This document shows positions 8,521-54,393 of a stretch of 64,000 bases of DNA, one piece after another. The notes beneath the pieces were generated by a model. The model had not been told where the DNA came from. It saw only the letters and a list, made by a program, of their open reading frames with translations, and ran no database searches. A program made the translations under genes and the position numbers. Numbering within the stretch: position 1 is the stretch's first letter; the number at the start of each line of letters is the position of its first letter. This DNA comes from Sphaerolaimus hirsutus (Eukaryota; Nematoda; Chromadorea; Monhysterida; Sphaerolaimidae), in the NCBI GenBank assembly GCA_964036195.1, contig OZ038451.1, forward strand, positions 24,569,927-24,633,926. The letters run 5' to 3'.

Positions 8521-9139
8521 CCATTTTCCAAATTAGGGGCTGAGTTTACAGGAGTTTCCAAACTAGGGGCTGTGTTTACAGGATTTAGAGGGGGTCCCCA
8601 TGGGGTGCCATTTTTGGGGGGTCTCCAGGGGGTAGGGTTGGGAATTTCAAAATTTTCGGTTCCGGTTCTAGGTTCTCGGTTCCAAAAGATTTCGGTTCGG
8701 GTATCGGTTCTCGGTTCCTGAAAATTTTTGGTTCCGGTTCTCGGTTCGGTTCTTAAACTCGGTTCCGGTTCGGTTCTTTCGGTTCTAAAATGATCAAAAT
8801 TTCGGTTCCGGGTAATAAAATAGCCGGGTATCGGGTAATAATCGGCTGAACAACAGAGAAACAATACACCCAAGTTTACATGTGTAAGTACATTGGTTGG
8901 ATATTTCATACTACAGGAGCATATCACAGCTTATTATTTCATGGTAGAATGCAGAAATCAGAGTTGTTATAATAATACTGGTATTTAAAAAAAGTGTAAA
9001 AGCAAACATATACGTTTTCTGTACTCGCGTACTTTCAAAAAGTACACGAGTAAATGAGTACTGGTATTTTTTTCTGGAGGAAACATAAATGTATATATGT
9101 AGTATGCGAGTGAGTACACGTATTATTTTGAGTACAAAC

Positions 9140-9843
9140 TAGGGTTGGCCGATGTTTTTTTAAACGTTTTTTTTTTTTTAAAACGTTTAAAAAAAAAAAA
9201 CATGATGCCCGAAATGTTTTTTTTTATTTAAAAACATCGGCCGAAATTTTTAGTACTAAGCACTAGGTATTTTGCAAAATTTTTGCGCGCAAGCGCGCAA
9301 TTTCACACACAAATTGACATTGGTGGTTGTTTTCATTGGTTTTGTTGCATTTTTAGTATCAAAACATGCATTTCTATGTGCTACCATGGGTGAATAAGCC
9401 GACATATGTTGCTGTAATATATAATGTTGAGGTAATGTGCTTCCATGTACCTCCACAGTGTGTAACTTCACTCCCAAAGTAACAACCTCCTTTTAAAACA
9501 TTGTTTGATCACTATTCCGTGCCAAACTTTACCTGAAGTCACGAACATTCGACTATAAGGCGATATACGAACGATATGTCGACGAAAAATGGATATTTTT
9601 GACACAAATCACCACTTATAATGCTATCCCATGGCTCCACAGCCATTATATGGTCATATTTAACATCACAGAGTATTGCCACTGTCTGATATACCTATAT
9701 ATGTTGACACTAGGTCATATCTGGGAGCTTTAAAAAAACAACGTTTTTTATTATAAAAAAAACGTTGTTTTTTTAAAAAAAAAACGTTTTTTTAATAAAA
9801 AAAACATCGAGTTAAAAAAAACGTTTTTTTTCTTCCAACCCTA
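9140..9843. mobile_element. hAT-type element with AAACGTTT motifs, copy 1
   Basis: It begins TAGGGTTGGCC, ends CCAACCCTA, and has the perfect 8-bp duplication GTACAAAC at 9132-9139 and 9844-9851. Both ends are runs of AAACGTTTTTTT and its complement; the middle (about 9240-9730) is ordinary sequence containing TTTTTGCGCGCAAGCGCGCA. It is 704 bp and closely matches the 705-bp copy at 53689-54393. Confidence 0.88.
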
Positions 9844-9937
9844 GTACAAACATAAATAACTTTTGCCAACTACAATTCAAACTGCCACAAAACCAAACTG
9901 AAAACTACTACCAGTGATAATGTGTATACTGCAGCGA

Positions 9938-10102
9938 CATTACACCTTACAATGAAATCTACCATATCCCATCTGAATAAACGAACATACATAAAAAATT
10001 TCATCATATTTATAAAAGCAATTTGATAAATATGATGAATTTTTTTTATGTTTGTTCTTTTATTCAGGTTGGATATGGTAGATTTCATTGTAAGGTGTAA
10101 TG
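9938..10102. mobile_element. small foldback element with about 35-bp inverted ends
   Basis: CATTACACCTTACAATGAAA and ATCTACCATATCC on the left are matched by their complement on the right, and the middle is also largely self-complementary (CATAAAAAATTTCATCATAT). It could fold into one long hairpin. It lies inside the CGGTTC element at 8633-10425. Confidence 0.65.
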
Positions 10103-10434
10103 GCGCTGGAGTATATGTGAAATTACACGCTCCCGCGCAATCATTTTGAAAACAGATGAATTTTGCAATTCTGAACACGCACCAAGATGTTCAGCTGCTG
10201 TTTAAAGGCTTAGATGTAGGTGTTGAAAAAACGCTGTTTAAAAACTTTAAGATTCCTAAAACATTTTCGGTTCTTTCGGGTATTTACTTCGGTTCCGGGT
10301 ATAAGTGCCGGTTCTCGGTTCCGGTTCGGTTCTCAAGCGCGGTTCCGGTTCTCGGTTCTCGGTTCCAAAATTTTGCTCGGTTCTCGGTTCGGTTCGGTTC
10401 GGGTCGGTTCGGTTCCCCAACCCTACCAGGGGGT

Positions 10435-10910
10435 GCCATTTTCTGGAGGTACATATGGGGGTGCCATTTCAAGGGGGTCCACATGGGATGCCATTTTTTG
10501 GGTGGTCCCCAGGGGTGCCATTTTTTGGTGGTCCTCAGGGGGTGCTATATTTTGTTTTGCGGGGGGGTCCATAGGGGGTGCCATTTTGGGGGGGGGTCCC
10601 CAGGGGGGTGCCATTTTTGGAGAGTCCCCAGGGGGAGCCAACTTTGGGTGGGTCCCCAGGGGGTGCCATTTTTGTGGGGGTTCCTAGGGGGTGCCATGTT
10701 TGGGGGGTCCCCAGGGGGTGCTATTTTTGGGGGGTCCCAAGGGGGTGCCATTTTTGGGGGGTCCCTAAGGGGTGCCATTTTTTGGTGGTCCTCAGGGGGT
10801 GCCATATTTGTGGGGCCCTAGGGGGTCCCATTTTTGGGCAGTTCCCAGGGGGTGCCACTTTTGGGAGGTTCCCCAGGGGGTGCCATTTGGAGGGGGGTCC
10901 CCATTGGGGT
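10435..10910. repeat. G-rich minisatellite of Helitron copy 1
   Basis: About 16 units of roughly 30 bp with GGGGTGCCATTTTTGG and GGTCCCCAGG recur here. The unit is a multiple of three in places, which keeps long glycine- and proline-rich frames open on both strands; these are not genes. The complement occurs at 24.56-25.94 and 37.77-38.3 kb. Confidence 0.9.
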
Positions 10911-11872
10911 GTCAGTTTTTGCAAGCCTCTGAGTAGTGGGTACCTATAGCAGGATTCTCTCCAACCTTCAGTTGGGTTTTGTGGTTCTCTACAATTTATA
11001 CCACAAGGATTTACAAACACAAAAAGAACAGCAAAGCACAAATGTAACCAATTGAAGATTACAACAAAGTTTGACACCTTGCAAAAACCACACTATCATA
11101 TCACAAAACCTATACCACACAGAATGCACACTGCACACCATCATACCAAATCGCAAACTGTCTACATTTTACTACCGAGTTTCATGCCCAACCATTTTAC
11201 AGAAGTTTACAAAAATCCATTCCAAAACATTGCATCTTTGGTATTGGTCTTGTTATTGTTGGTAGATTACATACCGCATTTCAAAACACATGCCTAGCAT
11301 GTGGGCAAACTTAACTAAAGTATCATATTTTCTCCAATGGTATTAATTGTAGAGAACCACAAAACCCGACCGAAGGTCGGAGAGAATCCTGCTAGTATAT
11401 ACACAAAACAGGTAATCAATGTGTCCAAGTAGGGTATATTTGGACATATCAACGTCTATCGCTACACAAACTAGTTAGTATATGTGTACCTGCGATGCGA
11501 ACTGCGACCATTTTTTACATCATGTACATTGCATACACCATGTACATAAATCCAGACGGGGGGTATTTCGAGGGGGGGGGGGTTAATTCAAGGGGGGGGG
11601 GGGTAAATCGAGGAAATACGGTACTTAAGGTAGCTGAGCAAAGACGAACGCTATTCATTCGAAGGCTTTCGATTTATAATGGAATCCGAGTAGTTTTCAG
11701 CGCACATGGTCGTATTCTCAGCAGTGGCGATTTCGTAAAAAAAATTATCCATCCCCCGCAGTGCCAGCTCTAAACAGCAAAGATGTGACGCGCGGCGGGT
11801 GTTCAGCGCGTCTACGCGAAGCCTACCTTATCGTCCGCTAGCCGGCCATGAGCAGCGGGGCATAGCGGCTGG

Positions 11873-12501: not shown

Positions 12502-12535
<34 letters not shown>

Positions 12536-15500
12536 CGGCAGCGGCACTTTGATCGGCAGCCGCACTCCGCGCGGCCAGGTGCCAGTTCCGCAAATTGAGA
12601 AGTGCGAAGTAAACTGGCAAAAGCGAAGTAAAACGGCAAAGCGAAGTAATTAAGCGAAGCATAAGAATTTCTCTTCGCTTTTGCCATTTTACTTCTCAAT
12701 TCACTTTGCCTTTGCCATTTTATGTCTCACTTCTCAATTTGCGGAACTGGCCCCAGACCTCGCCCTCGTGGGCTGCTATGACAGAATGCATTCCGAGATA
12801 CGGGCGAGCAAGAAACACTCCGAGGTGTGAGATTACAATAGTTGTTAAAATGTATTTACGTTTACTCAAACATATGTAAACTTGAGTACTGCGTAAATAC
12901 GTTTACATTTCCTCTGGAAGTACAGAAGACGCATTTCGTATAGGGTTTTTATCGGCTTCAGCGAGGCATAGAATCGAAAAAAGTAGAAGAAAGTTTTAAA
13001 AAAGGAAAAAATAGTCAAAATTTGTTATACAAGCACATATGTAGGTATATAGTCAAGAATAGCTGAAAATTGCAAAATGCAGATACCGTAGATTCACTAG
13101 TGAATTTGAACGTGAAAAAGGGCAACAATAATTGAAAATTAGTGATTTTGAGTGATAATTGGGGTAAAATTTCTCAGAAAAACTCACCTTCACATTTTCT
13201 TGTGAAAAAGGTACTCATGAGTAAAAGTAAATAAACTTACTTTACGTTTTCTGTACTCACGGGTGAGTAAAAAATAAAAACTTTACTTTTACGTTTATCC
13301 GCTCTGCCCCTAAACTAACTACCGTATTACCTCGAATTAACCCCCCCCCCCCTCGCAATACCCCCCTAAATTTCGCCGAGGAAATAATAACCCCCCCCCC
13401 CCTCGAAATATCCCCCCCCCTAAAATTGAGTGTAACGTGAACGTACATGACAGATACCTAACGATGGCAAAAAAAAATTCGAAAATTCGAAAATATTTTC
13501 GAATTTTCGAATTTTGTCATGATTTTCGAATTTTTATTCCACCCCTGGAAAAAAACACTTAAAAATCGATTTATTTTTCAAAAAATTCGAAAATTCAAAA
13601 ATTCGAAAATAGTTTTCGAATTTTTCAGGGAATTCAAGGTGACAAAAAGCGATCTTAAGTTCAGCGTGCTAAATAAAGCGACAATTGATATGTGGTGGGT
13701 CTGACCTCTGAAAAAGTCCCATGTAACGAAAAACAAACATTGAAAAACATTTAAATGGCATCCGCGGGGGCAGCGGCGGACTCCATCTATTTATGACATC
13801 TATTTAGGAATGCAGGGAGCCGCCCAAACAATTAGAACCGCGGCGCTCTACTTCCGCGGATACAGACTCTGGTCCATCAAAAAAATCGCTCGCGGGTCTT
13901 CCGAGGGGCAGTCACACAAACATTTTTGGAAGGCATTCTGCCCCAGTGAAAATGGTGCAAACTAATCCACATAAGTGTTTCTACCATTTGTCATGTTAAA
14001 GTGATATGAAATTGTCATGTCATGCTTCACTTACAGTGAAATTAAGGTTAAAAGGGGCTCCAAACATGAAAACAGTCCAAATACTGTGTTTTAAGCTACA
14101 AATTCAATCTTTTTCTGAAAAAATTCGAAAATTGCCAAAAAAGATTCGAAAATTCATAAATTCGAAAATTAAATTCAAAATTCGAAAATTTGAAAAATCA
14201 TTTTAGAAAAAACACTTAAAAATTTTAATACTTTTTTTCTGGGAGGTTTGCCATCGTTACAGATACCGCCGTTTGTCATCTGTACAATGCAGAACACACG
14301 TTAAAACTCGTTAACTTCACGTTTCCCCCCATGGACTTCTTCCCCCCGTGGTGTGATGCATTAGCGTTATGTCCGTGCGGACATAACGCTAATGGAACAC
14401 GACAAAACGGTAATGCAACACGACAAAACGCTAATGCAACACGGACAAAACGCTAATACAACACACTCCGGGGCAAGTTGTCCACGGGGGAAAAGTACCT
14501 GGAATCGTTAAAACTGATGATTAAGTGACGTTAGGGAAGGGTTTTTGTGTATATACAGTTATATATGTATGCCTATAAACACATATACATCTATGTAATT
14601 GTTTGATTTTTCTACATCTGCGTATGGGGAATTTCCGAAAATTTCTGGCGAAATAATAGACCCCCCCTCGAATTATCCCCCCCCCTCAAATTTTGCTGGC
14701 GAAAAAATAAACCCCCTGGGGGTATTTCGAGGAAATACGGTAACAAACTACTTTGAAAAAAGTTCACTACTTCTAACAACTCTGGGGAGGTTACTCAATT
14801 AATTCACATGAGTGTGGATGTTAGATAAAAAAGAAGCGACCCATCGCAGGAGGGTATCTACCTTAGCGTGTTCGGCGACCTGGCCGACTTCCGACCGCAG
14901 TCCTCCAGCGTGTCGAGCGGCATGGCGCGGCAGAAGGAGATGGACGATTACCTCACTTGGCTCAGATCAGAGGACAGCAACAGAAAGGTGAGACGCACGT
15001 TATTTGAGCAGTTTACCTAAGTTCTTTTGTAATATTTGTGTCTGCGGCCACCACTTTGCAATCCTGCGAAACATTTGGTTAACGTATTTCCTTGAAATAC
15101 CCACCTCGAAATACCCCCTCAAAATGACCACTATGAATTAATAGACCCCTCTCGAAATACCCCCCCCCGCCCCAAATTGAGTGTGAACTGAACGTAAATG
15201 ACAAAAGATGCGGTTTGTTAACCAGGCAATGCAGAACACTTTTAACACAATGACTGTGTTACGTTAGAACAATTTTTATACCATCTACATTCTAACATAC
15301 TTATAAAGGTGCATACGTTACACACAACAAATAAGTACTGCGTGTTCAAGAAATTTCTGGCGAAATAATAACCCCCTCACCGAAACCCCGAAACTGTGAG
15401 AATATCAACTCCCGGGGTGCATTTCGAGGAAATGCGGCATGTTCATAATTGACCAGAAAAACTCGAAAATGCGATAGGTAATTTAGTACGAAAAATCCGA

Positions 15501-18500
15501 AAATTAAACTCAAAAATTCACAATTGTCCACAGTGTTCACCTCCTTACTACCAATTCGACCATCCAAAATTCCCAGGTACTTACCCCCGGACCAGACCGC
15601 CGGCGACCCGACGAGCAGCAGGGCGGCCACGAGCCCCTGTACACGTCGAACATCGAGCTGGCGGACAAGCCGATGGCGAACAGGAGCGCGGGCGCCATGT
15701 TGTTGGCGGCGCCGTTGGTCGACCCGGCGCTGTGCGCCAGCGACAGACAGCGCAGGGCGTCCATTGCTGGTGAGAGGATGTTCACTGCATAGTTGTTTAA
15801 ACATATTTACTTTTACTCAATAAATACGTATACTCGAGTACAGAGTAAAAATGTTTACGTTTCCTTCGAAAAAAGTTCCTGTGCTCGCTTTTACGTATAC
15901 CTTTTGAAAATATACATGTACAGAAAACGTATTTCTGATTGGCGTTTATGCTGCGATTACAGCTGGGCGTAAAATTGACTGGCGTAAAATTGATCTTTGG
16001 GTGTAAAATTGATTACAGGTGAATGGATAAAGATATGGCGTTGTAATTTCAGTCAAAGAAAGCGCACATGCAGATGTTGCTTGTGCCCAATGCTCATCAC
16101 TTTAATTTTCATTTTTAATTTAATAAATCATCAGTTTTTTTTATTTTACTAGAAGTTATGAATTTTGGCACAAATTTTTTTAATTTTACACCCGAATTTT
16201 ACACAACTTATGGCGCATAATTGAAAAAATTGTGCTAAAATTCATAACTCCCAGTACGATTTTAATAAACTCATGAGCTTTGGACACAAGAAACGTCTGC
16301 ATCACAGCTTTCTTTGACTGAAATAACAATGTCGTATTTTTTCAATTCATCTGTAATTTATTTTATGCCCAAAATCAATTTTATGCCCGAGCTGTAATCG
16401 CAGCATTATAAAGGTTTTTAATGCATGGAAGGAATGATGAAAATGCACAAAATGGAGAAAAATAGCCAAAAGATAGTAAAGATTGAAAACATTGAAAACA
16501 AAAAATTTAAAAATTAAAAAGATGAAAATGATTAAAAATATGAAAATTTGTGATTTTGGGTGAAAATTGTGGTAAAATTGTTAAAAATACTAAGTTTTCC
16601 ACATACCGTATTTCCTCGAAATACCCCCCGGGGGTGATTGTTTCATAGTGGTCCCGAGAGGGGGGGGGGGGTTAAACGAGGGGGGGTATTTCGAGGGGGG
16701 GGGGGTTATTATTTCACAAGAAAATTTTTGAAAACCAAGTACGAAATAGTCGTCTGAAACGTACGCAGACGTCGAAAAATGCAACAAAAACCGCCATTTA
16801 TAAGGTTCTGTAGACTAATATTAGTATGTAGATGGTATGTACCAGAGTTGTTAAAATACCGGTATTTTTGGAAAGTGTAAGTGTAAGTGTAAATACACTT
16901 TCCAAATTTCGAGTATGTATACCAAAAGTGTAAGGTATTTTAAAAATACCTAGGAAAGTGTAAAAAAAGTGTAAGTGTAAATTTTTTTTAGAAAGAGCTC
17001 TCACTGTTGAGCATTAGAATACACCACTGTTTTCACCTTTAGATCAATATATTTGTCATTTTTATGCATCATTTCACATTTTACTGCCTTTTATGAAACA
17101 TTTCAGACTGTAGCAAATACTGTAGTGGTATGAAGTTCACTAATAATGGCACTTTTTCAGTGTTGATATTTACTGATTAAGCAATGCGATACACACTGCT
17201 TAAATGCAAGATTGGACATGCAGCAAATGTCAATGCAAAAGCCAGTTGACTTTGTGTCCAACTGGTGAATTTCCATTGATCTTGTCCTTTTTACAAAAGT
17301 ATGATGAAACTGTAGAATACCTTGAGTACTGATCAAAGGTTGGAGATCGAAGGCTAGTTTGTACATTTGCCATATTTTCTACATTCAATGCATAACTGCA
17401 TGTGTGTACTATGCAGTTATTTTTTGTACATGACCCTATTTTATGCTTTCTCAAAAGCATAAAACAGGGCCATCTGAAAGAAAAAAATACACTTTCTGTA
17501 CCCGGGTATTTGGCTCAGGAAAGTGTAAAAAAAGTGTATGGGTATTTTATGAAAGTGTAAGTGTAAGTGTAAATATAAATACCCATTTACCCGGGTATTT
17601 CGGGTAAGTGTAAATACACTTTCGCAACTCTGGTATGTACACTGTTCTAACGTGACACCGACGTTGTTTTAACGTGTGTTCTGCAGTACACAGAACACAA
17701 ACTGCAGTATTTGTCATGTACGTTCCCTTTACACTCAATTTGGGGGGGGGGTATTTCGAGGGGGGGGGGTGATTGTTTCATAGTGGTCCCGAGAGGGGGG
17801 GGGGTCAAACGAGGGGGGGGGGGTATTTCGAGTATTTTACTCAGTAAAGAGTATTTTACTCACGTTTATTCATGGGCAAAGGTAAAAACTTTAGTTACGT
17901 TAAGTTACTTTACGTTTCCTGTACTCGGTGGTGAGTAAAAATAAAATACTTTACGTGTACGTATACTCTGAAAAAAGTTTGGTATTTTAACAACTCAGGT
18001 TTAGTGACCTGTGACTGAAAATAGATTCTAGCCAACTTCGAGCTACTAGTCATGCGAGTTTGCACACTATCAGACACTAACCCTAACAAATAGTCAAATT
18101 CAAAAACACGCGCAATCAACCAAGCAATCAACTGATCCACCAATCACAGACTTGGTCGGTCAGCGGCTGCGCGACCGCGACCGCGGCGACAACAACACGG
18201 CGGCGGGCAGCGCCAGCGTGCAGCTGCGACGCAAGGCGTCCGTTTGGAAGGCGGCAGCGGCACTGGGCGCGCTCACCAGGCCGCTGCACAACCAGCGCAG
18301 GACTAAGAGGAAAACGCAGGTGGGTGAAAAGTGGGTGTTAATCTGAGATTACAGCTTGACGGAGAATAGGTAACGGAAAATTGATTACATGAGAGTGTAT
18401 GAGATGGTACAGGGCTCAAATATTTCATGGATAGTAAATATATTTATCAATATTTGTATTGTGTCGAAAGCACAGCGTATACAATCACAGCTGGATCATT

Positions 18501-26500: not shown

Positions 26501-29500
26501 ACAAATCCATCATTTTATGGTTTGAAAGTTTTTGGCCCAGGGGGTTCATTTTAGGGTTATGGTAATGTAGTGTCAAAATGAAGTGCATATTTCAAATGAG
26601 TGCTATCAGAAACCCAAAAATGCATCATTTCTCAAATTGAAAGTATTTGGCCCCATGGGTTCATTTTTAGGGTTATGGTAATGTAGTGTCAAAATGGAGT
26701 GCATATATCAAATTGGTGCAATCAGAGACCCAAATTTGAAATCAGTGCAATCAGAAACCCAAAAATGAATGATTTCACAAATTGAAAGTTTTTGGCTCCA
26801 GAGGTTCATTTTCAGGGTTATGGTTATGTAGTTTTCAGGGTTATGTAGTGTCAAAACAGAGTGCATATTTCAAATCAGTGCAATTAGAAACCCACATTGA
26901 ATCATTTCACAATTTCTAATTTTTTAAGCCCTGGGCATATTTGAAATCGCTACACTCAGAAACCCACAAATCCATCATTTTATGGTTTGAAAGTTTTTGG
27001 CCCAGGGGGTTCATTTTAGGGTTATGGTTATGTAGTGTCAAAATGAAGTGCATATTTCAAATGAGTGCAATCAGAAACCCGAAAATGCATCATTTCTCAA
27101 ATTGAAAGTATTTAACCCCATGGGTCCATTTTGAGGGTTATGGTAATGTAGTGTCAAAATGGAGTGCATGTATCAAATCAGTGCAATCAGAAACCCAAAT
27201 TTGAAATCAGTGCAATCAGAAACCCAAAAATGCATCATTTCACAAATTGAAAGTTTTTGGCCCCAGTGGTTCATTTTCAGGGTTATGGTAATGTAGTGTC
27301 AAAATGAAGTGCATATTTCAAATGAGTGCAATCAGAAACCCAAAAATGCATCATTTCTCAAATTGAAAGTATTTGGCCCCATGGGTTCATTAACGGGTTA
27401 TGGTAATGTAGTGTCAATGGAGTGCATATATCAAATCAGTGCAATCAGAAACCTAAATTTGAAATCAGTGCAATCAGAAACCCAAAATTGCATCATTTCA
27501 CAAATTGAAAGTTTTTGGCCCCAGTGGTTCATTTTCAGGGTTATGGTAATGTAGTGTCAAAATGGAGTGCATTATATATAAAATGAGTGCAATTAGAAAC
27601 CCACAATGCATCAAAACATATACAATTGTGAAAGAATCATTTCACAATTTGAAAGTTTTGGCCCCATTTTGGGTTCAATTTCAGGGTTATTGTAATGTAC
27701 TGTCAGAATGGAGTGCATATTTCAAATCATTGTAATCAGTAACCCACAAATGCATTATATCACAATTTATATTTTTTAGCCCCGGGGGCCTCACTTAAGG
27801 ATTATGGTAATGTTATTGTTAACTCCCATAAACTCAGCCCCTAATTTGGCAAACACCCATCAACTCAACTCCCATAAACTCGGCCTCTAATTTGTGAACT
27901 TGTGTCAACAGCCCCTTATTTTTAAACTTCTGTCAACTCAACCCTAATTTATAAACACCCATCAACTCAACCCTCAATTGTAAACTCAGCCCCTAAAAAC
28001 TCAAGTCAACCCCCTATACATGTGCAATTGCATTCTTGGGAAGCAACTTTGCCATCTACTAACCCTGTTTGTCAAGATTGTGGATCGTGTTTGTAAAGGG
28101 CATTTGTACTAATAAATAGTGACTGCATTGTGTGCAAAAACACACACGAATTGGGCACAATGAGGCCTGTGATTGTGCGTCCTATCTTTTACATTAGGCA
28201 TACCTAGCACGCAATTCTTTCACAATTGTATATGTTTTGATGTGCATTATCAAGGTTTCTCGCATTTACCAGCTTCCACCGAAACACATTGACAGCCCTT
28301 TGTGTCAACACTAGTACCAAATGTCATCGTGCACGGCGTGTTAAGAATTGTCGGTGGTCCACTGTCAGGGATATCGACCTCTGAGCAGAATGAGTTTGCA
28401 TCACAATCTTGTGGTGGTTCAGAATTGGCAGCTGGGTTTGCCCAACATGGTGCTCCAAGTCTTGCTGACGTTAAAGGAACCTGCGACATATTTTCTGCCA
28501 TGAATTTTAGACAAGCTACATTTTCATTTACAACCAACTTGTACACCACATTGGCACTTGTAGAGTGACTTGTCTGTTGATTGCTGGCATACAGAAGCTT
28601 TCAAGTTGCTTTTGAATGCAGTATCCGTGCTGACAGCTGGGTCCACACATTCAAGAGACTCATCAGCTGCTGGCAACGTGCAGTTTAGGCTTGAGGAACA
28701 GATTGAGGGGGCTTCGTATGGCTTTGGCACTGCATTCGAGGGACTCGGGTATTTGGTGGTCAATTACCCGTAATTTTGCTCAGTTGGTTCGATCGAACAA
28801 AACTCACTATCAGTCGCACAACTGCAGAAATAATTTCCACTGGTTCCCTCCTGTTTACACGGTGTGGCTTCAGACACGGTTTTGCCACCACATTGCTGCT
28901 CCTCTCCCTGGGTACACTTTGTCCCTTGCAGACAGATTGGAACTGGGACCAGATGAAAATGTTTAAATGATAACAATCATATCCACAAATCACAGATCAC
29001 ACAAATCAAAGTTGCAAACTGACATCCAGTCCCGGTCTGCTTGGTGGGGTCGCCAGCTGTGGACATTTCTGGCTTGCATGCACATAAGCACGCTGCACTG
29101 GCAGTCACTGCAAGCACAGAAAACTGATATTAAACCAATTTGCATGCCTAAATACTTGATAGCCGTTGATATTTTGGCAACGGAATGGAGACATTAGGTA
29201 TATTGGTACTAGTGATGTAAAAAGCGCCAGACTTTTGGCGCCAAGCGCCAAAAGCGCCATGGCGCTTTTGGCATGCGAGCGCCAAGCGCCAATGGCGCCA
29301 CAGCAAAATAGCGCCAAGCGCCAAAAGCGCCATGGCGCTTTTCTAGACCATGGCGCCAAGCGCCAATGGCGCCACGGGATGATGGCGCCAAGCGCCAATA
29401 GCGCCAGCGCCAAAAAAATTTGCTGCATAAAGTGCAGCGATGCAAATGCAGTGCTATCTATTTGTTTGTCAACTAGTTCCCATCCCAATTCAAAGCTTGC

Positions 29501-32500
29501 TTGCCAAGTAACACTATCCAGTGTTGTATACACATATACCATATTTCCTCGAAATACCCCCCTTCAATTAACCCCTCGAAATACACCCCGTCTGGAATAA
29601 GGTAGAGCATGTATCCAATGAACATGATACATTCATAGCTGCGAATTTACATCGCAGCTATACATGGCTTTGTTTATGGAACGATCTATGGTAATATGAA
29701 CAAAATATATCCTATTTAGTCATCTAATTACGTTTTGGGTACAAAAAACTATACTTTACTACGACCCTTCATAAAAATTCCCCCTGAATAAGCACCCCTC
29801 GAAACTCCCCTCAAAATTTGCACCCTGAAAAAATAAACCCCCTGGGTGTATTTCGAGGAAATACGGAAGGTACTTCATGCTGGTATTTCATACCACAGTA
29901 AAAATACAACTTCATTTGCAATATAATGCAACACTATGCATTTGAACGCTCGTCATCAAGCCTAGAATTGGGATGAAAACCAGTTGACATAAAATGTCGT
30001 TGAAAACTCGTGCGTGTAGGCCCATTTTTTGGTAAAAGTTTTGAATATCCTTGCAATTGCATGGACATGGTTTACAAAATAAGCAAGTAGAGGGTTTGTT
30101 ATTCCTGTAACACACTTACAGTAACACATTTACTTATGTAACTCATGTAGGCAAGGTCTTTTTACATAAGAAAAATGATTATTTTTTGTACTACTTGGCG
30201 CTTTTTTGGCGCTTTATAAAACACTAGCGCCAAGCGCCAATGGCGCCACGACATCATAGCGCCAAGCGCCAAAAGCGCCACGGCGCTTTTCGGTAGCACA
30301 GCGCCAAGCGCCAATGGCGCCACAGCAAAAAGGCGCCAAGCGCCAAAAGCGCCATGGCGCTTTTTGCTTTGGCGCTAGCGCCAAGCGCCAGCGCCATGGC
30401 GCTTTTACATCACTAATTGGTACCCAGTAATTGGAGCGGTGACGTCTAGCTATTTCATTAGCTAGTTATTTAAAAAAAACTCATTGTCGATCGACAGCCT
30501 ACCTATTTAAATTAAAACTGATACTTACGACAGACGCTCATATCCTTTGCAGCACCACTACTAACATCTACTCTGCAATAATTGGCATCACCACAGTCAG
30601 TCACCGCAGTTGCAGCTTTGCAGGTTTGTCCATGATTCTTGCACTTTGCGCCTGAAACCACCGTGTTTAATGCATGTGTCCAAAACTCCAACGTACTGAA
30701 AATCTCACTTCTCACCATTCGGGCAAATTTTACACTTGCAATTTTCCGCCCCCGACGAGGGGCAAGCAATGAAAATGTAGGCGTTGTTGGTGTCTTTAGT
30801 TTCTTGCATGCAACTTCCGATCACCCCGCCGCAGTCTAGATCGGAGTAACACTTCTTGTCAAACACGCAGCTTGTGTTGGTGGCTGAACGAGGGTTGACG
30901 CGATTTTTGGACATGTTTACGCTACTGACGCACTTGGATGGGACTTACGACAGCCGCCGCAAGTGCCGATCTTTTCGCCACTTCCGAGCCCACAGGATTT
31001 ATAGGCTCCACCACAATCGGAATCTCCATTAGGACACGCTTTGCCTTGCGTGCAATCTGCGGATGGACACCAGTACCAATGTGTAAATATTTACTTTCTA
31101 TCCTGGAGGCAGACTAGGTAAATTGGAACGTAAAGCACCCAACACGAGCGTAAGCGCGTGAAATTACACCCCTTATATTCTGATTCTAATAAACTTGACG
31201 CCAGGGGCAACTTCCAGACGCTGTAAAATGCCCTGTAAAATGTGAAATGTCATGCAAAGTGTCAAAAGTAATGTAAAATGCCTAGTAAAATGGCAAACGA
31301 TCTCCATTTTCCGGGGCATTTTACATTACTTTTCACTCACTGCATATCATTTTACATGGCATTTTACAGGGTCTGGCACCAGTGGCCCTACTTCCTTCAA
31401 CAACTCTACCAACTCGAGCACTTCTCGCAGTAGCCCTTCGCAGACGAGCCATCAGCCGCCCCGGTCTGCGTGCAAGTGCCGTCGGTCAAGGGGCCGGCTG
31501 GTTTGTTGCAGTAGGTGGTGTTGGTGCACGAGGTGCCCGCGATGCAAGCTGAATTTTGGGGTTGTTTTAAAAAAAGAAGTTTTTTAGAATGTTCTTGAGT
31601 GAATATTCCACTTTCAGCTTCAAAAACAGTCTGTTAATTCAATTGTGGACTGAAAAAGTGACGAAAAGTGCCACTTCCAACGACAACTTAACCTGGTCCA
31701 ACAGTAAAGTATTGCGACGCTGTGCAGTATCCACACGACACAGGGCAGGTAATTCTCGCCTGCGGGTGGCCGCACTTGCCACCTGCGACAACTTTTGAGC
31801 AGTAAGTTGCATCGACGGCGTTTTCCTTGCACGGTGCTGCAGTTTGCATGTAGCTGACATCCTTGATCGCCTGGTCGTTGCCACCCACTGCGCGATTTTA
31901 CGTCGGGGTTCACAAAATGTACCTTGGTATAGGGTTCAAACGGGATCCCGATCCCGATCCCGGATCCCGTGAAATTCCGGGATTTACCAGTCCCGATCCC
32001 GATCCCGATCCCGAAACCCCAATCCCGATCCCGATCCCGATCCCGAAATCTCAAAAATACCAATCCCGATCCCGATCCCGAAAGTTTTCAAATCCCGATC
32101 CCGATCCCGAGAAACTCCCAAGTCCGGGATCCCGATCCCGGAAAAATTAGTGGAAATTATAAAAAGTGAAATAATGACGTTTTTGCATGCAAAAAAGTGG
32201 ATGCAATCCCCCAGCGTCAATTTTATGCCACTTTTCTGGCATCCAACAGTGTTTTGAGACCTTTATGAACAACTGTGAATGCCAGAAAAATGGCCAAAAT
32301 CTCTATCCCTAGAACCCAATCCCGATCCCGGAAAAATGCCTATCCCAATCCCGATCCCGATCCCGTGACCCCAATCCCGGCCAATCCCGATCCCGATCCC
32401 GATCCCGAAATCTCAAAAAACCAATCCCGATCCCGATCCCGATCCCGAAACCCCAATCCCGATCCCGATCCCGATCCCGAAATCTCAAAAAGTGAATCCC

Positions 32501-33788
32501 GATCCCGATCCCGATCCCGAAAAGTCAATCCCGTTTGAACCCTACCTTGGTATCCATTTACACTTACGTATTATCTCGGATAATTCCCCCGGGAATTACT
32601 TTTTCGTCGGACTTTTTTTTTTGGGGGGGGGGGTTATTCAAGGGGAATTATTTTTGTCAAAATTTTCAAGCATGTTTCTATCACGGCATTCTACAAAAAG
32701 CTTTATGCTTTGCAAACACACTAACATGCCATTTTTGTTCAAATTGATCCTATGCCCTTCGAGGGGGGATTACTCGAGGGGGGGGATTATTTTGTCAGAC
32801 TTGTCTAACAGGGGGGAGGGAATTATAAAAGGGCAATTTTTCAAGAGGGGTGATTATTCAAGAAAATACGGTATATCAAATAAATAACATAGCCAAAACA
32901 GAATAACAAACAACAGAGAAAAACAAACGCATTTCCTTGCATAAGTTGCAGCAGTACAAATTTTTCATGCGCTCATTGTAGAGACAAGTATTGCCCAGCC
33001 AGTGGAAATTTGACGCATGGTTTGCATTGCTCGTTATGCGCGTAATCTGTGATTTACACCAGCCGCTCGAACGCCAGTTGAGACATATGCGCTGACCTGG
33101 GTGCAAATTCAATTAGTCCCACCCGGGTTTTTCTCAGAGTTGTTAGAATTACTGAACTTTTTTCAAAAGTATATGTAAATGTAAGTATTTTATTTTTATT
33201 CACAACAAAGAATAGAAAATGTAAAATAGTTTTTTTTACTTGTTCTCATGCGTAAATGTGAGTAAAATACTTTTTTCCCCAGGAAAATGTAAAACCGAGT
33301 ACTTTTCCGCTGGACATGTGCTACTGGACAGTACTTTTTACATGTGAGAGTGAGTTTTACACTGAAAGACACAATATACATATGTCATTGTTAGCGATTA
33401 TTTAGTACTTTTTAGAAAAATGATATGATTTCTTCAAAACTGTCTTATTTTAGCAACAGAAAATTGTGATTTTAGCAACAAAAAATACATTTTCTCTGTA
33501 CGCGTGTAATTTTAAAATGTACGCGTAAAAGTAAGTACATTACTTTTTGAAAATATATATGTGAATGTATTTACCGCGTACTCGCGTACGCGTATTTTTC
33601 AAGTAAATGTACGTACATTTTAACGACTGTGGTTTTCCTTGTGGCCCGTAAGGCGTAAACTTCAAGCATGATGATCTTCCGCTAAAAATAATTTTGTAAG
33701 AACGGTGTTAACCGATATTTTTACCTTGTGCTGAAGGGATCTCCTTTGCAAGTTGCGCAATAAAAATGAACAAAATGAGGTTCTGCAT
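23598..33788 (-). CDS. modular cysteine-rich secreted protein (about 13 exons, 590 residues)
   Basis: In transcript order the exons are 33725-33788, 31693-31887, 31410-31548, 31195-31220 (tentative), 30949-31056, 30716-30883, 30529-30651, 29024-29107, 28808-28942, 28547-28729, 28270-28464, 23782-24042 and 23598-23689. Exon 1 encodes a signal peptide (MQNLILFIFIAQL). Most other exons begin and end in phase 1, the classic pattern of shuffled extracellular modules, and each brings a cysteine set. Exon 2 ends like a ShK-type domain (TCPVSCGYC); others carry CYSDLDCGG, DCGDANYC and CYSDWSGICGYGTC. Exon 12 has a threonine-rich linker and a basic furin-like site (GGKRRRKRAD); the protein ends KGACSCK. 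No membrane segment is seen, so secretion is likely. No whole-protein family recognised. The exon 3 to 4 junction only works if the 26-base exon is real. Confidence 0.7.
24560..25945. repeat. C-rich minisatellite of Helitron copy 2
   Basis: Units of about 30 bp with CCAAAAATGGCACCCCCT and GGGGACC form three blocks separated by duplicated 3'-module sequence. They keep proline-rich frames open up to about 209 codons; these frames are not genes. Confidence 0.9.
25955..27800. repeat. tandem array of about 120-bp units in Helitron copy 2
   Basis: This is the reverse complement of the array at 5740-8520, with phrases such as TTATGGTAATGTAGTGTCAA and ATCAGTGCAATCAGAAACCC. It is followed by the CTCAGCCCCTAA minisatellite to about 28010. 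Confidence 0.9.
29210..30415. mobile_element. hAT-type element filled with GGCGCCAA/AAGCGCCA motifs
   Basis: It begins TAGTGATGTAAAAAGCGCCA and ends TTTTACATCACTA, with the perfect 8-bp duplication ATTGGTAC at 29202-29209 and 30416-30423. About 200 bp at each end are near-continuous GCGCCAAGCGCCAAAAGCGCC. A CCGTATTTCCTCG-type element (about 29540-29872) is nested inside. The whole lies in an intron of the cysteine-rich gene. Confidence 0.88.
31204..31388. mobile_element. TGTAAAATG-family TIR element at a splice acceptor of the cysteine-rich gene
   Basis: The left end CCAGACGCTGTAAAATGCCC and right end GGCATTTTACAGGGTCTGG are inverted repeats. On the minus strand the last bases (TTTTACAG) serve as the acceptor of the tentative 26-base exon 31195-31220, which itself overlaps the element end. 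Confidence 0.6.
31930..32545. mobile_element. hAT-type element filled with GATCCC motifs
   Basis: It begins TAGGGTTCAAACGGGATCCC, ends with the complement, and has the perfect 8-bp duplication CCTTGGTA at 31922-31929 and 32546-32553. Most of the 616 bp is (CCCGAT)n broken by short spacers such as CTCAAAAA; only about 150 bp in the middle is different. It lies in intron 1 of the cysteine-rich gene. Aspartate-proline frames here are artefacts. Confidence 0.9.
32574..32873. mobile_element. TIR element, CCGTATTTCCTCGAATAATT variant, degraded left end
   Basis: A left end like CGTATTATCTCGGATAATTCC and a right end AAGAAAATACGGTA enclose GGGAATTATTTTTTCGTC and ACTCGTCTAACAGG phrases shared with 46476-46769. 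Non-coding; lies in intron 1 of the cysteine-rich gene. Confidence 0.55.
33135..33631. mobile_element. hAT-type element with GTAAATGTAAG/GTACGCG motifs
   Basis: It begins CAGAGTTGTTAGAATTACTG and ends TTAACGACTGTG, with flanks GTTTTTCT and GTTTTCCT (7 of 8). It is related to the 19.3-kb element and lies in intron 1 of the cysteine-rich gene. Confidence 0.65.
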
Positions 33789-38615: not shown

Positions 38616-38619
38616 TTCA

Positions 38620-40980
38620 GGTTTATGGTAATGTAGTGTGAAAATGGTATGAATATTTCAAAAAATCACTATCATCAATCCACAAATGCATCAATTCACA
38701 ATTTTCAATTTTTTAGCCCCAAGGGTTAGACTTAAAAGGTTATGGTAATGTAGAGTAGAAATGGAGTGCACATCTCAAATCACTGCAATAAAAAACCCAC
38801 AAACGCATCATTTCACAAATTGAAAGTTTTTGTGCCCAGGGGTTCATTATCAGGGTTTTAGTCAAATGGTGTCAAAATGGAGTGCATATTTGAAATCACT
38901 ACAATCAGAAACCCACAAACACATCATTTTATGATTTGAAATGTTTTGGCCCTGGGGGTTCATTTTCAGGGTTATGGTAATGTAGTGTCAAAATGAAGTG
39001 CATATTTCAAATCAAGGCAATCAAAAAGCCACAAATGCATCATTTCACAATTTCTAATTTATTAGCCCCATGGGTTCAATTTAAGGCTTACAGTAATGTA
39101 GAGTTGAAATTGAGTCATTTCAAATCAGTGCAATAAGAAACCTGCAAAATGCATCATTTTACAATTAGAAATTTTTGGGTCTAGGGGTTCAATTTCAGAG
39201 ATTTAGTAATGTAGTGTCAAAATGGAGTGCATATTTGAAATCGCTACAATCAGAAACCCACAAATGCATCATTTTATGATTTGAAAGTTTTTGGCTTAGG
39301 GGGTTCATTTTTATGGTTATGGTAATGTAGTGTCAAAATGAAGTGCATATTTCAAATGAGTGCAATCAGAAACCTGAAAATGAATGATTTCACAAATTGA
39401 AAGTTTTTGGCTCCAGAGGTTCATTTTCAGGGTTATGGTTATGTAGTTTTCAGGGTTATGTAGTGTCAAAATGGATTGCATATTTCAAATCAGTGCAATT
39501 AGAAACCCACATCGAATCATTTCACAATTTCTAATTTTTTAAGCCCTGGGCATATTTGAAATAGCTACACTCTGAAACCCACAAATCCATCATTTTATGG
39601 TTTGAAAGTTTTTGGCCCAGGGGGTTCATTTTTAGGGTTATGGTAATGTAGTGTCAAAATGAAGTGCATATTTCAAATGAGTGCTATCAGAAACCCGAAA
39701 ATGCATCATTTCTCAAATTGAAAGTTTTTGGCCCAGGGGGTTCATTTTTAGGGTTATGGTAATGTAGTGTCAAAATGAAGTGCATATTTCAAATGAGTGC
39801 TATCAGAAACCCGAAAATGCATCATTTCTCAAATTGAAAGTATTTGGCCCCATGGGTTCATTTTTAGGGTTATGGTAATGTAGTGTCAAAATGGAGTGCA
39901 TATATCAAATTGGTGCAATCATAGACCCAAATTTGAAATCAGTGCAATCAGAAATCCAAAAATGAATGATTTCACAAATTGAAAGTTTTTGGCTCCAGAG
40001 GTTCATTTTCAGGGTTATGGTTATGTAGTTTTCAGGGTTATGTAGTGTCAAAACGGAGTGCATATTTCAAATCAGTGCAATTAGAAACCCACATTGAATC
40101 ATTTCACAATTTCTAATTTTTTAAGCCCTGGGCATATTTGAAATCACTACACTCAGAAACTCACAAATCCATCATTTTATGATTTGAAAGTTTTTGGCCC
40201 AGGGGGTTCATTTTAGGGTTATGGTAATGTAGTGTCAAAATGAAGTGCATATTTCAGATGAGTGCAATCAGAAACCCGAAAATGCATCATTTCTCAAATT
40301 GAAAGTATTTAACCCCATGGGTCCATTTTGAGGGTTATGGTAATGTAGTGTCAAAATGGAGTGCATATATCAAATCAGTGCAATCAGAAACCCAAATTTG
40401 AAATCAGTGCAATCAGAAACCAAAAATGCATCATTTCACAAATTGAAATTTTTTGGCCCCAGTGGTTCATTTTCAGGGTTATGGTAATGTAGTGTCAAAA
40501 TGAAGTGCATATTTCAAATGAGTGCAATCAGAAACCTGAAAATGCATCATTTCTCAAATTGAAAGTATTTGGCCCCATGGGTTCATTTTTCGGGTTATGG
40601 TAATGTAGTGTCAATGGAGTGCATATATCAAATCAGTGCAATCAGAAACCTAAATTTGAAATCAGTGCAACCAGAAACCCAAAAATGCATCATTTCACAA
40701 ATTGAAAGTTTTTGGCCCCAGTGGTTCATTTTCAGGGTTATGGTAATGTAGTGTCAAAATGGAGTGCATTATATATCAAATCAGTGCAATTAGAAACCCA
40801 CAATGCATCATTTCACAATTTGATAATTTTGGCCCCATTTTGGGTTCAATTTCAGGGTTATCGTAATGTACTGTCAGAATGGAGTGCATATTTCAAATCA
40901 TTGTAATCAGTAACCCACAAATGCATTAAATCACAATTTATATTTTTTAGCCCCGGGGGCCTCACTTAAGGATTATGGTA
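38620..40980. repeat. tandem array of about 120-bp units in Helitron copy 3
   Basis: It has the same units and orientation as 25955-27800, including the same order of unit variants in several stretches, so the array was copied with the element rather than expanded independently. Confidence 0.9.
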
Positions 40981-41412
40981 ATGTTATTGTTAACTCCCAT
41001 AAACTCAGCCCCTAATTTGGCAAACACCCATCAACTCAACTCCCATAAACTCAGCCTCTAATTTTTAAACTTGTGTCAACAGCCCCTTATCTTTAAACTT
41101 CTGTCAACTCAACCCTAATTTATCAACACCCAGCAACTCAACCCTGAATTGTAAACTCAGCCCCTAAAAACTCCAGTCAACCCCCTATACATGTGCAATT
41201 GCATTCTTGGGAAGCAACTTTGCCATCTACTAACCCTGTTTGTCAAGATTGTGGATCGTGTTTGTAAAGGGCATTTGTACTAATAAATAGTGACTGCATT
41301 GTGTGCAAAAACACACACGAATCGGGCACAATGAGGCCTGTGATTGTGCCTCCTATCTTTTGCATTGAAGCATGCTTAGCGTGCAGTTCTTTCGCAATTG
41401 TATAGGTGGAGA

Positions 41413-41790
41413 TAATGCAAAGTGTCAATTGTCATGACAAAAGTAGTAAAGAGTCAATTGGCATCTCAAATGTCAAGCAAAGTATAATTGTCATGACAAA
41501 TGTCGTGCAGAGTGTAAATTGTGTATCTGAATCTTATGTTTTGGTATCTAAACCTTATATGTTGGTATCCAAATCTTATGTTTTTGTATCCAAATGTTCA
41601 CACAAGATTTGGTTACAAAAACAACAACATTTGGATACAAAATATAAGAATTCGATACAATTTGCTTTACAGTTTCCACTTACATTTTTGTCATGACAAT
41701 TGACACTTTACTTAACATTTTCATGAAAATTGACACTTTCCATTCCATTTCATATGACATTTTGACACTTTACATCCCCAGCTCCGCGAA
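41413..41790. mobile_element. right part of a TGTAAAATG-family TIR element split by Helitron copy 3
   Basis: AAGTGTCAATTGTCATGAC near the left is mirrored by GTCATGACAATTGACAC near the right, closing with TTGACACTTTACATCCCCAG. The matching outer left end (GTGCTGGGCGCATTTGTAAAAG) is found at about 37240-37266, on the far side of the Helitron. Confidence 0.55.
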
Positions 41791-42591
41791 TGAACAGGTT
41801 GAACTATAAACAACAGAAACAAATTTTACAAAAAATATGAATTTTTATACAATTTTTACCAAAATATGAATTTGTATACAATTTTACAAAATTTTTACAA
41901 AAATTCGAATTTTTATACAATTTTTATTTTTATTTTGAAATTTTCCATTTTATTTTATTTTATTCTTCAATTTTTCATTTTATTTTTATTCTTTTCTGAG
42001 ATTTTGCCAACCCTGGCCAGGGGAGTTATTTTTCGTCAGTTTTTGTGGCTGTGAGTTATTAGAGCGGGGTGTTATTTTTTCCTCAAACTAATAACAGGAG
42101 GGTTATTCATGGGGTGGGGTTTTTTTCGGAGAGGGAACTTATATGATCATTTACGCATAGTCAATAAGCATTCAAAAATATGTTTTCTGCACTCAAAAAA
42201 GTATTAATTACTTTTTTGGAAGCAAACTTATCTAAACATGTTCCGTACTCACGTATAAATACTTAGCTTTCGAGTAAAAGTAAATATGTTTTCTGAACTG
42301 TGGAACAGTAAGTGGGTACCTATATTTACTATAAATTATTCACGCCAATGTTTGAGCAGCGGTATAAATTGCATAACATAACATATTATTTACAATTTAA
42401 ATTTCAAAATTTCGAAATGAGCATGTGCGTAAAATGCTAATCAAAACACGACAATGCTAAATGTGATGATGCTGTCGTTTACCACCAACAATTATGTACC
42501 TAAATATGTTTGATTGTAGGTATATTTGGCGGACCGCAAAGTATGCGCCCAAAATTAGTTATGTCTCATTCGATAATTTTTACTTACCTAA

Positions 42592-44193: not shown

Positions 44194-45042
44194 TAGGGTT
44201 CAAACGATATATCGTATCGAATATCGAATATCGGATATCGACCACTTTTTAATATCGAATATCGAATATCGATATCGAAAATTTTGAAAAAATATCAAAT
44301 ATCGATATCGAATATCGAAAATTTTGAAAAAATATCGAATATCGATATCGACCATATTTTCGATATATCGAACCTGTATAATGTCCTTAATTAAGTTATT
44401 TTTTTTGTTTTGAGATATTTGTGATTAATTTGATTTGCTTATAGTATCTAAGTTGATGAGTAAAAGTAAAGTATTTAATGTCATCTTTGTTGGAGTGCTT
44501 ACTCCACATTTCTTGTATTTGGTTTGGCCACATACCTACTGAACTACCTACCTCAAATTTGAAGCCAGAAAATGCTGATATGCTGCTTTTTTTGCAACAT
44601 GCCCTTTAAACAATTGGGTTATAAGTATGAATTGTAATATCTACCAATTTTTGTTTGTCTGATACAATTTGATTCATCATGTTTTTTCTTTGATTTTCTC
44701 ATTCTGACTATTGTAAACCTTGTTAAAATCAATTGTACTTTTCAGTAAAGAGATAATCAACCATGTTTGCAACCATATGAAAATACAATATGCTGCTTGA
44801 AATATCCCTTGCTATACCAAAAGCTAAATATCGAATATCGAAAATATCGAAATATCGATATCGAATATCGACCATTTTTTAGTATCGAATATCGAATATC
44901 GATATCGAGGGTCCATATCGTATCGAATATCGATATCGAAAATTTTGAAAAAATATCGAATATCGAATATCGATATCGAAAATTTCTAAAAAATATCGAA
45001 TATCGAATATCGATATCGAAAAGTGATATCGTTTGAACCCTA
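44194..45042. mobile_element. hAT-type element filled with ATATCG motifs
   Basis: It begins TAGGGTTCAAACGATATATC and ends CGTTTGAACCCTA. The flanks CTCGTAAG and GTTGTAAG agree at 6 of 8 positions. The outer 180-220 bp on each side are ATATCGAATATCGATATCGA repeats; the middle 430 bp is plain AT-rich DNA. It has the same TIR as the GATCCC element at 31930-32545 but a different internal motif. Confidence 0.8.
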
Positions 45043-52657: not shown

Positions 52658-52805
52658 TAGGCCCCAAACACGCTAGTTGACATCGACACCAAATGTCAAC
52701 TGGTTCCGTTCCCAATTCAAATCGTCGGCTCGTCAGCAAGCTTTGAATCGGGATCGGCGCCAGTTGACATTTGGTGTCGATGTCAACTAGCGTGCGCGGG
52801 GCCCT
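52658..52805. mobile_element. 148-bp foldback element with about 50-bp inverted ends
   Basis: CTAGTTGACATCGACACC and AAATGTCAACTGG on the left are mirrored on the right by CCAGTTGACATTTGGTGTCG and GTCAACTAGCGTG. Both arms continue into GGCCCC/GGGGCCC at the ends. It belongs to the GTTGACA group seen at 50.0, 50.9, 56.2 and 60.7 kb. Confidence 0.7.
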
Positions 52806-53253
52806 TAATTGCATCTTGATTAATAAATAAAAATCCTCGATTTTGCAGAAAGTTCTATCGGTCAGCCATCAGATTTATAATCAATCCTCCACGCAATTTA
52901 CACCCGATGCGCACCACTTCAAAGGCGCTGTTTTTATACATTTCCATTTACCGCATCTTAAAACGAACGCAAATTTTTCGGTGTACCGTGCGCCAATAAA
53001 ACGTTTTACATTTTACCAAGATTTTCAGGCACGTTTGTTGAGGACTCGTTTACGCACAAGAACGCTGAAGCTATCGTAAAAATTTACTTCCAGTAAGACA
53101 CTTGTGTTATGGTATATAATGAATCTCGGTACCCTAAAAACGAATCACAAAGTTCCATAAAATGCACACAAATCATAAAAAAACACAACCTAATAGTACG
53201 AAATAAGCACCCAACCAGACAGTAAGCAAAAAGCACCAAAAAGCACAACTTTT

Positions 53254-53310
53254 GGCATCGGTCACATGGGTTCTGGTTGTCCAGTTTCACCCTATGACGT
53301 CATAATAGCC
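53254..53310 (-). promoter_or_regulatory. SECIS element of selenoprotein M
   Basis: On the minus strand this region reads as a SECIS RNA. A lower stem GGC/GCC is followed by the core ATGA (53303-53300) opposite CGAT (53260-53257). Stem II is GTCATAGGGT paired with ACCCATGTGAC (10 pairs, one bulged A). The apical part has the unpaired AAA, 12 bases after ATGA, then a small extra stem CTGG-ACAA-CCAG, as in form 2 SECIS. It lies downstream of the selenoprotein M stop codon in the same orientation and would direct selenocysteine insertion at its TGA. Found by eye; folding software was not run. Confidence 0.82.
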
Positions 53311-53688
53311 GCACTAGTGTGGGCCTCTGCTTACAGGAATGTTGGGTGTGTGCCAAGTTGTGGAGTGTGGGATTTTTTGTGGTATTTTTGCTTGACTGGA
53401 AAATTGGTTTTTGAATTTCGCATGTGAAAGGTCTCGGATCGTTGAACGTGGAATTGATACTCCGCGAAGCGCATGCTTTACACGTTTCTGAACGAAACTA
53501 CATATTGACATCATTTATCGAAAGAGAATTGTTCCAAAAGTATTGAAAATCCATGTTATAATTTGTGTAATATAATTTGAAACTTTTGTTGAGGTAGGTG
53601 CATGAGTGTGTCGTTGGTGCACGGTCGCATGAGACATAAGTATTTGACCATGCAAAGCGTGCAGTCCGCGAAGTACGCTACCCCACAC

Positions 53689-54393
53689 TAGGGTTGGCCG
53701 ATGTTTTTTTTTAAACGTTTTTTATTAAAAAAAAACGTTTTTTTTTAAAAAAAAACACGACATCCGAAATGTTTTTTTTTAAAAAAAAACATCAACCGAA
53801 ATTTTTAGTACTAAGCACTAGGTATTTTGCAAAATTTTTGCGCGCAAGCGCGCAATTTCAGACACAAATTGACATTGGTGGTTCTTTTAATTCGTTTTGT
53901 GGCATTTTTAGTATCAAAGTATCCATTTCTATGTGCTACCATGGGTTAATAAGCCGTCATATGTTGCTGTAGTATATAATATTGAGGTAATGTGCTTCCA
54001 TGTACCTCCACAGTGTGTAACTTCACTCCCAAAGTAACAACCTCGTTTTATAACCTTGTTTGATCACTATTCTGTGCCAAACTTAACCTGAAGTCACGAA
54101 CATTCGACTACAAGGCGATATACGAACGATATGTCGACGAAAAATGGATATTTTTGACACAAATCACCACTTATAACGCTATCCCATGGCTCCACAGACA
54201 TTATATGGTCATATATAACATCACAGAGTATTGCCACTGTCTGATATACCTATATATGTTGACACAAGGTCATATCTGGGAGCTTTTAAAAAAAAACGTT
54301 TTTTATTAAAAAAAAACGTTTTTTTTTAAAAAAAAACGTTTTTTTTTAAAAAAAAACATCGAGTTAAAAAAAAACGTTTTTTTTCCAACCCTA
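53689..54393. mobile_element. hAT-type element with AAACGTTT motifs, copy 2, in the selenoprotein M 3' UTR
   Basis: It begins TAGGGTTGGCCGATG, ends TCCAACCCTA, and has the perfect 8-bp duplication CCCCACAC at 53681-53688 and 54394-54401. Length 705 bp, near-identical to 9140-9843 including the central 480 bp. It sits between the stop codon and the SECIS of selenoprotein M, adding 713 bases to that distance. Confidence 0.9.

Follow-up and report, generated by a model that had tools for sequence, protein, structure and literature searches.

The window analysed here, 64,000 bases of the Sphaerolaimus hirsutus genome (C2:24569927-24633926), carries eight small insertions with terminal inverted repeats (TIRs) and arrays of a short repeated word. 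The locus raises the question of what these arrays are for and why the word differs from one element to another. A first-pass annotation of the same DNA had assigned the insertions to the hAT superfamily and taken the arrays for expanded transposase-binding sites, and all eight insertions with their TIRs are present. They belong to a large genome that contains many small cut-and-paste transposons, with copies of a short word crowded into their ends. The genome searched comprises 348,482,957 bases in 762 contigs, and a sample of 200 kb was taken at fixed positions from 20 loci over 11 contigs. Judged from sequence comparison, the elements are probably non-autonomous hAT elements whose transposase-binding arrays follow changes in binding specificity.

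Exchange of the array word in E4-type elements

The element E4 (16843..17632, + strand) is flanked by a perfect target-site duplication (TSD), GTATGTAC, and its start lies 10 bases before the position first given (16853). It can be aligned through both arms with three other elements, namely E4b (in L012), L034:1-754 and L010:5745-7236. The array word is AAGTGTA in E4 (16 copies) and E4b (15 copies), AAGCGTA in L034:1-1000 (17 copies) and AAACGTA in L010:5745-7236 (14 copies). Between E4 and L034, 15 of the 16 sites are alignable; the lone difference at 14 of them is the GTG/GCG change and one is unchanged, while 29 of 199 columns outside the motif differ. Similarly, 12 of the 13 alignable sites (15 in total) are switched between E4b and L034, with 29 of 210 other columns differing. 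E4 and E4b share the motif at 15 of 16 sites, the exception being one AAGCGTA in E4b where E4 has AAGTGTA, and they differ in 16 of 192 other columns. Opposite the 15 alignable sites of E4, L010 has 11 AAACGTA, one ATACGTA, two AAATGTA and one AAGCGTA (40 of 198 other columns differ). Opposite the 12 alignable sites among the 17 of L034, it has nine AAACGTA and one each of ATACGTA, AAATGTA and AAGCGTA (29 of 167 other columns differ). Under independence, 14 identical changes at 15 sites have a probability of about 2e-19, a rough value that treats the sites as independent. The switched sites lie in several distinct contexts and in both arms, and this concerted exchange gives indirect support that would favour the binding-site and arms-race reading.

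A genome-wide search with a left-arm pattern containing three variable words gave 2,155 exact matches, and the reversed control gave none; a right-arm pattern gave 933. Letters were obtained for 85 left arms, all on contig C1, from 100 listed places of the 2,155. Thirty-seven of these arms read GTG three times, 35 GCG three times and one ACG three times, and 12 were mixed. The 73 uniform arms compare with a mean of 19 and a maximum of 34 in 20,000 shuffles, which shows that the E4-type copies fall into two large subfamilies with one fixed word apiece. Uniform copies are descendants and do not represent additional independent switches.

Neutral homogenisation, in which slippage, unequal exchange or gene conversion would keep the arrays uniform with no selection by a transposase, is an unlikely account of these patterns. 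Higher-order tandem units inside the arrays, such as those of 35-40 and 71-74 bp, and the variation of length within a family (402-615 bp in the five measured ATCCCG elements) are in its favour. However, the changes between E4 and L034 fall at matching positions in different contexts and in both arms, and by our estimate conversion tracts of about 10 bases or less, leaving the contexts untouched, would be needed. Somewhat less plausible still is a purely mutational switch in which AAGTGTA is simply deaminated AAGCGTA. The two words do differ by C to T at a CpG, and a mixed relative exists (L026:1801-2939, with 4 GCG, 3 GTG and 2 GCA). Deamination on either strand predicts GTG and GCA in similar numbers, but E4 has 16 and 2, respectively; CpGs outside the motif are similarly frequent in the sampled arms (6 in E4 and 7 in L034), and deamination at the CpG of AAGCGTA does not yield AAACGTA. 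The genome sample has a CpG observed/expected ratio of 0.92 and the window one of 0.88, which indicates little general decay.

Exchanged motifs also occur on two other sets of ends, and these groups, compared by motif counts and tail sequences, are weaker evidence. The TIR TAGGGTTCAAAC is common to ATCCCG (five elements), ATATCG (three) and GGTCCC (one) arrays, with cross-occurrence confined to two ATCCCG elements, the first of which contains a single ATATCG and the second a single GGTCCC. E6 and E7b have a common tail backbone, AAAAGTCA-motif-TTTGAACCCTA, in which the motifs are exchanged; the remaining two ATATCG tails carry AAAAGTGA, and divergence is greater in the GGTCCC tail. Among elements with the left end TAGGGTTGGGAATTTCAAAATTTTCG, E1, L007 and L008 contain 30, 30 and 31 copies of CGGTTC, respectively, plus 3-4 TCGGGT and 6 CGGGTA each, and L013:5470-7393 contains chiefly TCGGGT (15 copies, with one CGGTTC).

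Ends, motifs and strand preference

Element ends were set by searching for TIRs and duplications, by reading the sequence directly and by a scan with the TIRs. The eight window insertions are given on the + strand. E1 (8633..10425; CGGTTC arrays, TSD CCAGGGGG) is interrupted by the nested AAACGTTT element E2 (9140..9843; TSD GTACAAAC), of which a second copy, E2b, lies at 53689..54393 (TSD CCCCACAC). E3 (13459..14259; TTCGAA arrays, TSD CAGATACC), E5 (29210..30415; GGCGCC/AGCGCCAA arrays, TSD ATTGGTAC) and E6 (31930..32544; ATCCCG arrays, TSD CCTTGGTA) were delimited as well. The TSDs of these six elements are perfect. E7 (44194..45042; ATATCG arrays) has the same TIR as E6, and its flanks CTCGTAAG and GTTGTAAG agree at 6 of 8 bases. 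The proposed 8-bp duplications thus hold exactly for seven of the eight insertions and imperfectly for E7. Two single ends were also found: that of a TTTCCG element on the - strand (54927..55151; TIR TAGGGTGTCAACAA, tip at 55151) and that of an E6-like element on the + strand (60924..61090; GGGTTCAAACGGGATTG), both with approximate inner limits. No partner end was found for the former, and none was seen for the latter.

The window contains nine pairs of TIRs with an exact 8-bp duplication, several of them repeats within satellites or arrays; of three Markov sequences, one contained a single such pair and two contained none. Over the window and the 20 loci, TIR pairs starting with C/TA and flanked by an exact duplication numbered 12 at 6 bp, 14 at 7 bp, 37 at 8 bp (including a few array-free elements and redundant hits within E4 and one L009 satellite) and none at 9 or 10 bp. 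Eight bases stands out as the duplication length. The TSD consensus of Ac-type hAT elements is nTnnnnAn. T at position 2 and A at position 7 each had a frequency of 0.47 in 33 hand-chosen TSDs with both strands counted (a set that keeps the left copy of E7 and excludes most imperfect TSDs, the satellite rows and rows without arrays, those of CAGGGG type among them), against a background of about 0.29 each for A and T in the genome sample; this is a bias and not a rule. The TIRs of hAT elements begin with C/TA-G. The starts TAGGG, TAGTG and CAGAG fit such a short TIR, and TAACG of E3 is a poorer fit. The start of the Ac TIR agrees with the pattern as well, according to the accessible part of the source (PMC3260210). 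Long inverted-repeat arms of the foldback type were not seen, and the printed ends match over short TIRs only.

Comparison of the first 508 bp of E1 with the genome gave at least 42 rows, 40 of them near-full-length with 96-100% identity (40 of 2759 candidates scored). Eight loci were fetched, and the four not on the minus strand were assessed: L001 corresponds to the window copy, L007 and L008 have perfect TSDs, and the right end was not seen in L003.

For motif scoring, 25 elements were hand-picked from the window and sample lists, and the yardstick was the maximum among 100 Markov simulations per element. The count of the core motif exceeded this maximum in all eight window elements and in 14 of the 17 sample elements. 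The three exceptions are a 105-bp element in L025 and two CAGGGTTGG elements, in which the chosen word merely equals the simulated maximum. The core motif covers 14-43% of seven elements, four of which were measured in full and one, in the window, minus its nested insert; the description of the interiors as largely one motif was therefore overstated. Nor is each motif self-complementary, as had been proposed, since a palindromic core is present in three of the seven motifs (AAACGTTT, TTCGAA and GGCGCC).

The motifs had also been described as occurring in both orientations, and this does not stand as a general rule. E1 contains 30 CGGTTC on the forward strand (14 and 16 in its halves) and none on the reverse, E6 contains 42 ATCCCG forward and three reverse, and the halves of a CGGAAA (TTTCCG) element contain 14 and 13 copies with none on the other strand. 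Eight of the 25 elements were scored with a palindromic word and one, of 105 bp, is too short; in all of the remaining 16 the dominant strand is identical in both halves. These elements come from seven families and are therefore not 16 independent cases. Because arrays on one strand lie within inverted TIRs, the two ends of such an element differ.

CpG is present in ten motifs (CGGTTC, AAACGTTT, TTCGAA, GGCGCC, ATCCCG, ATATCG, TTTCCG, CGGTCC, ACCGTA and AAACGTA, not AGTGTA) of a list of 11 that we chose by hand and that carries no comparison with chance. As the binding of Ac is sensitive to CpG methylation, a methylation gate on the array families is possible.

Additional array families were found in the 200-kb sample and the window. 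They include TTTCCG with the TIR TAGGGTGTCAA, ACCGTA with the TIR TAGGGTGGCAGA (219 bp), CGGTCC/GGTCCC with the TIR TAGGGTTCAAAC, and AAACGTA with the ends CAGAGTTG and CAGTGTTG. Relatives of E5 contain more GGCGCC and GGCGCCAT than E5 itself. The window also contains a 7,758-bp CAGGGTTGG hAT-like element (34258-42015) with the exact duplication GCCAGGGG, in two of whose listed reading frames no Pfam match was found; shorter relatives are located at L010:7280-8279 and L026:803-1708. A minisatellite block with 27-, 30- and 116-bp units occupies 37766-41108 inside this element. A composite repeat with 27-, ~29- and 116-bp tandem units occurs three times in the window (5541-10921, 24554-27986 and 37766-41108), with both orientations represented; this block is one of the copies, and E1 is located inside the first of them. 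Minisatellites of 27 and 116 bp close to the elements were set aside, as they look like a separate repeat. A further TIR pair of ~1.09 kb, TAGGGATGGCC..., is flanked on both sides by CTCATTAG at L040:1912-2999.

Transposase remnants and a full-length element

The hAT transposase dimerisation domain PF05699 was searched in the genome at E<=1e-6 and gave 11 matches, nine of which are free of stop codons over the matched stretch. In seven of the 11 loci the domain lies between TIRs with an 8-bp TSD that is perfect (L029, L030, L032, L034 and L035) or has one mismatch (L033 and L039), and arrays are present; array elements that bear a transposase exon also bear arrays. ATATCG arrays are located on either side of the domain in L036 and L038 and downstream of it in L037, with a right TIR in all three (L037 and L038 are overlapping loci, ~850 bp apart). 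The domain is found inside array elements of the TIR groups TAGGGTGTCAA, TAGGGTTCAAAC and CAGAGTTG. In the window, E7 contains a remnant of the C-terminal transposase exon (44487..44606, + strand), in which tblastn aligned 20 residues at 75% and 19 residues at 95% identity to the L037 exon (E-values of 2e-4 and 1.1e-5 in a small database of fetched loci). We also observed that the dimerisation exon is kept in the non-autonomous elements of L029, L030, L033, L034 and L036-L039; short dimerisation peptides from such elements could, as a speculation, poison the transposase.

A full-length element, which holds L031, was identified at C3:40743-46748 (6,006 bp; TIR CAGAGTTGTTA), with the perfect TSD CGCCAAGG on both sides. 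Its dimerisation domain matches that of Hermes with an E-value of 7.8e-13. Its core is 21% identical to a tardigrade hAT protein, P0001 (pairwise BLASTP E-value of 4e-19; database E-value of 2.3e-13), the sole protein found at E<=1e-6. Per 300 bp, TACG/CGTA occurs 17 times in the first block, eight times in 5701-6000 and 0 or 1 times elsewhere. The expectation of a full-length partner with the motif in its subterminal regions is borne out by this one element, although TACG is the exact motif of no window element. An unpaired end at 17998 of the window (- strand), CTGAGTTGTTAAAATACC, is similar to the right end of the full-length element. The full-length transposase has a relative at C6:2267067 (L049 and L050), into which a TTTCCG element has cut upstream of the BED exon.

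That the arrays bind a host transcription factor, insulator or silencer protein in place of a transposase is very improbable: other transposons are generally known to carry host-factor sites at times, but the motif is restricted to the two ends in the one full-length element read, and motif sets differ between the TIR groups seen.

A genome search for PF02892 (zf-BED) at E<=1e-4 gave seven matches, five at C1:7466186-7488779, one at C1:7679975 and one at C6:14237406, and no array element enclosing them was found in the pieces read. The five in the first region (L040-L042, L044 and L045), spread over 22 kb, were rejected as transposon BED fingers; they probably represent one multi-BED gene of the host or a cluster of host genes.

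The earlier hAT assignment, as judged from coding remnants and the full-length element, is confirmed for three TIR groups and would extend by assumption to the others.

Proposed mechanism and known systems

We propose that internal deletion of full hAT elements gave rise to the non-autonomous copies, as seen in three TIR groups and assumed otherwise. The arrays would be subterminal transposase-binding sites, most likely for the BED finger, and the short TIR would be read by the catalytic part of the transposase, as Hermes, Ac and Herves suggest. Many sites may raise the affinity for, or the recruitment of, an oligomeric transposase. Arrays on one strand may make left-right pairing distinguishable, as Hermes requires. 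In E4-type elements the motif is replaceable at nearly all sites with the TIR and layout kept. The cause would be selection on the copies to track a transposase with a changed DNA-binding domain, and such tracking may split one family into separate substrate groups. A more specific version, which we regard as possible and rather doubtful, is that the genome preserves a fossil series of re-keying. The TIR, as the catalytic key, would have stayed fixed and the DNA-binding key would have been exchanged wholesale, one base at a time, at ~15 scattered sites in each element. A single hAT lineage would in this way have split into transposase-substrate pairs that exclude one another, and escape from parasitic non-autonomous copies would have been the driving force.

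Several observations weigh against arrays that follow transposase specificity. The motif switch represents no more than one or a few events in the past, and L034:1-754 starts at the first base of its locus, with its duplication outside the view. Minority reverse copies occur in E7 (36 versus 10 reverse) and in E4 (13 versus 3 reverse). None of the 11 PF05699 matches belongs to the TIR groups of E1, E2, E3 and E5. The full-length evidence comes from one element read, of the CAGAGTTG group, and its TACG-type motif resembles that of E4 and differs from it. At its left end TACGCG occurs on both strands (6 and 4 copies), and the one-strand rule is not extended to this near-palindromic motif. Beyond the dimerisation domain its match to Hermes lacks significance (0.8 bits), and no hAT match was obtained from Pfam with the pieces that precede the dimerisation exon. 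Its BED-like finger (C-x2-C and H-x4-H, split over two exons) was recognised by eye and had no Pfam match to PF02892. Of the two other BED copies examined, the C6:2267067 relative has lost a zinc-binding histidine of the finger, and the array of the C1 copy lies outside the piece read.

To our knowledge, how a transposase changes its DNA-binding specificity when all of its sites must change too is unsolved. Several motif versions on one TIR and layout, with 2,155 matching arms in one group, would offer a direct test of such a change, and a genome of this kind would yield a natural table of BED-finger specificities. We found no description of concerted motif switching in hAT arrays in the accessible parts of the open-access literature; most subscription journals and Repbase lie outside this search, and prior notice is quite possible.

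Four known systems can be compared with the array elements; the coral CMITE was set aside as a comparison since the accessible text describes piggyBac-like elements. Galileo of Drosophila resembles them in having multiple sites near its ends for the DNA-binding domain of its transposase and differs, as far as the available text goes, in its long terminal inverted repeats and in its superfamily, P (PMC3688188). The mosquito element Herves likewise carries a short motif repeated at both ends, CG/AATTCAT, which the accessible part of the report describes as critical and sufficient for binding and as bound also in the form of a direct-repeat tetramer. Unlike the families described here, Herves is a single element, and a switch is not mentioned in that part (PMC3143072). 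Ac/Ds of maize shares the TIR C/TAGGGATGAAA, the 8-bp TSD and repeated subterminal hexamers. According to the available sections, its AAACGG hexamers are bound cooperatively and are retained in non-autonomous derivatives, but a single hexamer serves the entire family and no motif switch is mentioned (PMC3260210).

Hermes, which has a homologous dimerisation domain, combines TIRs and subterminal repeats with non-equivalent ends. In the portion of the study available, BED fingers bind short subterminal repeats (STRs), cooperatively at a quasi-palindrome (PMC10368747), and cooperative binding of this kind could explain the palindromic families. The left end (LE) has STR2-7 in antisense and the right end has STR1-5 in sense orientation; the STRs are thus oppositely oriented between the ends, and a symmetrised LE/LE construct keeps little mobilisation (PMC10368747). 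The numbering in that portion implies that each end is drawn inward, in which case we infer that the STRs of Hermes share one strand too. The Hermes motif is the 4-base AAG(T/C), with 17 and 14 occurrences in the text available (PMC10368747), in contrast to the 6-8 base motifs described here with their 14-43% coverage in seven elements. Unlike Hermes, the array elements comprise many motif families within one genome.

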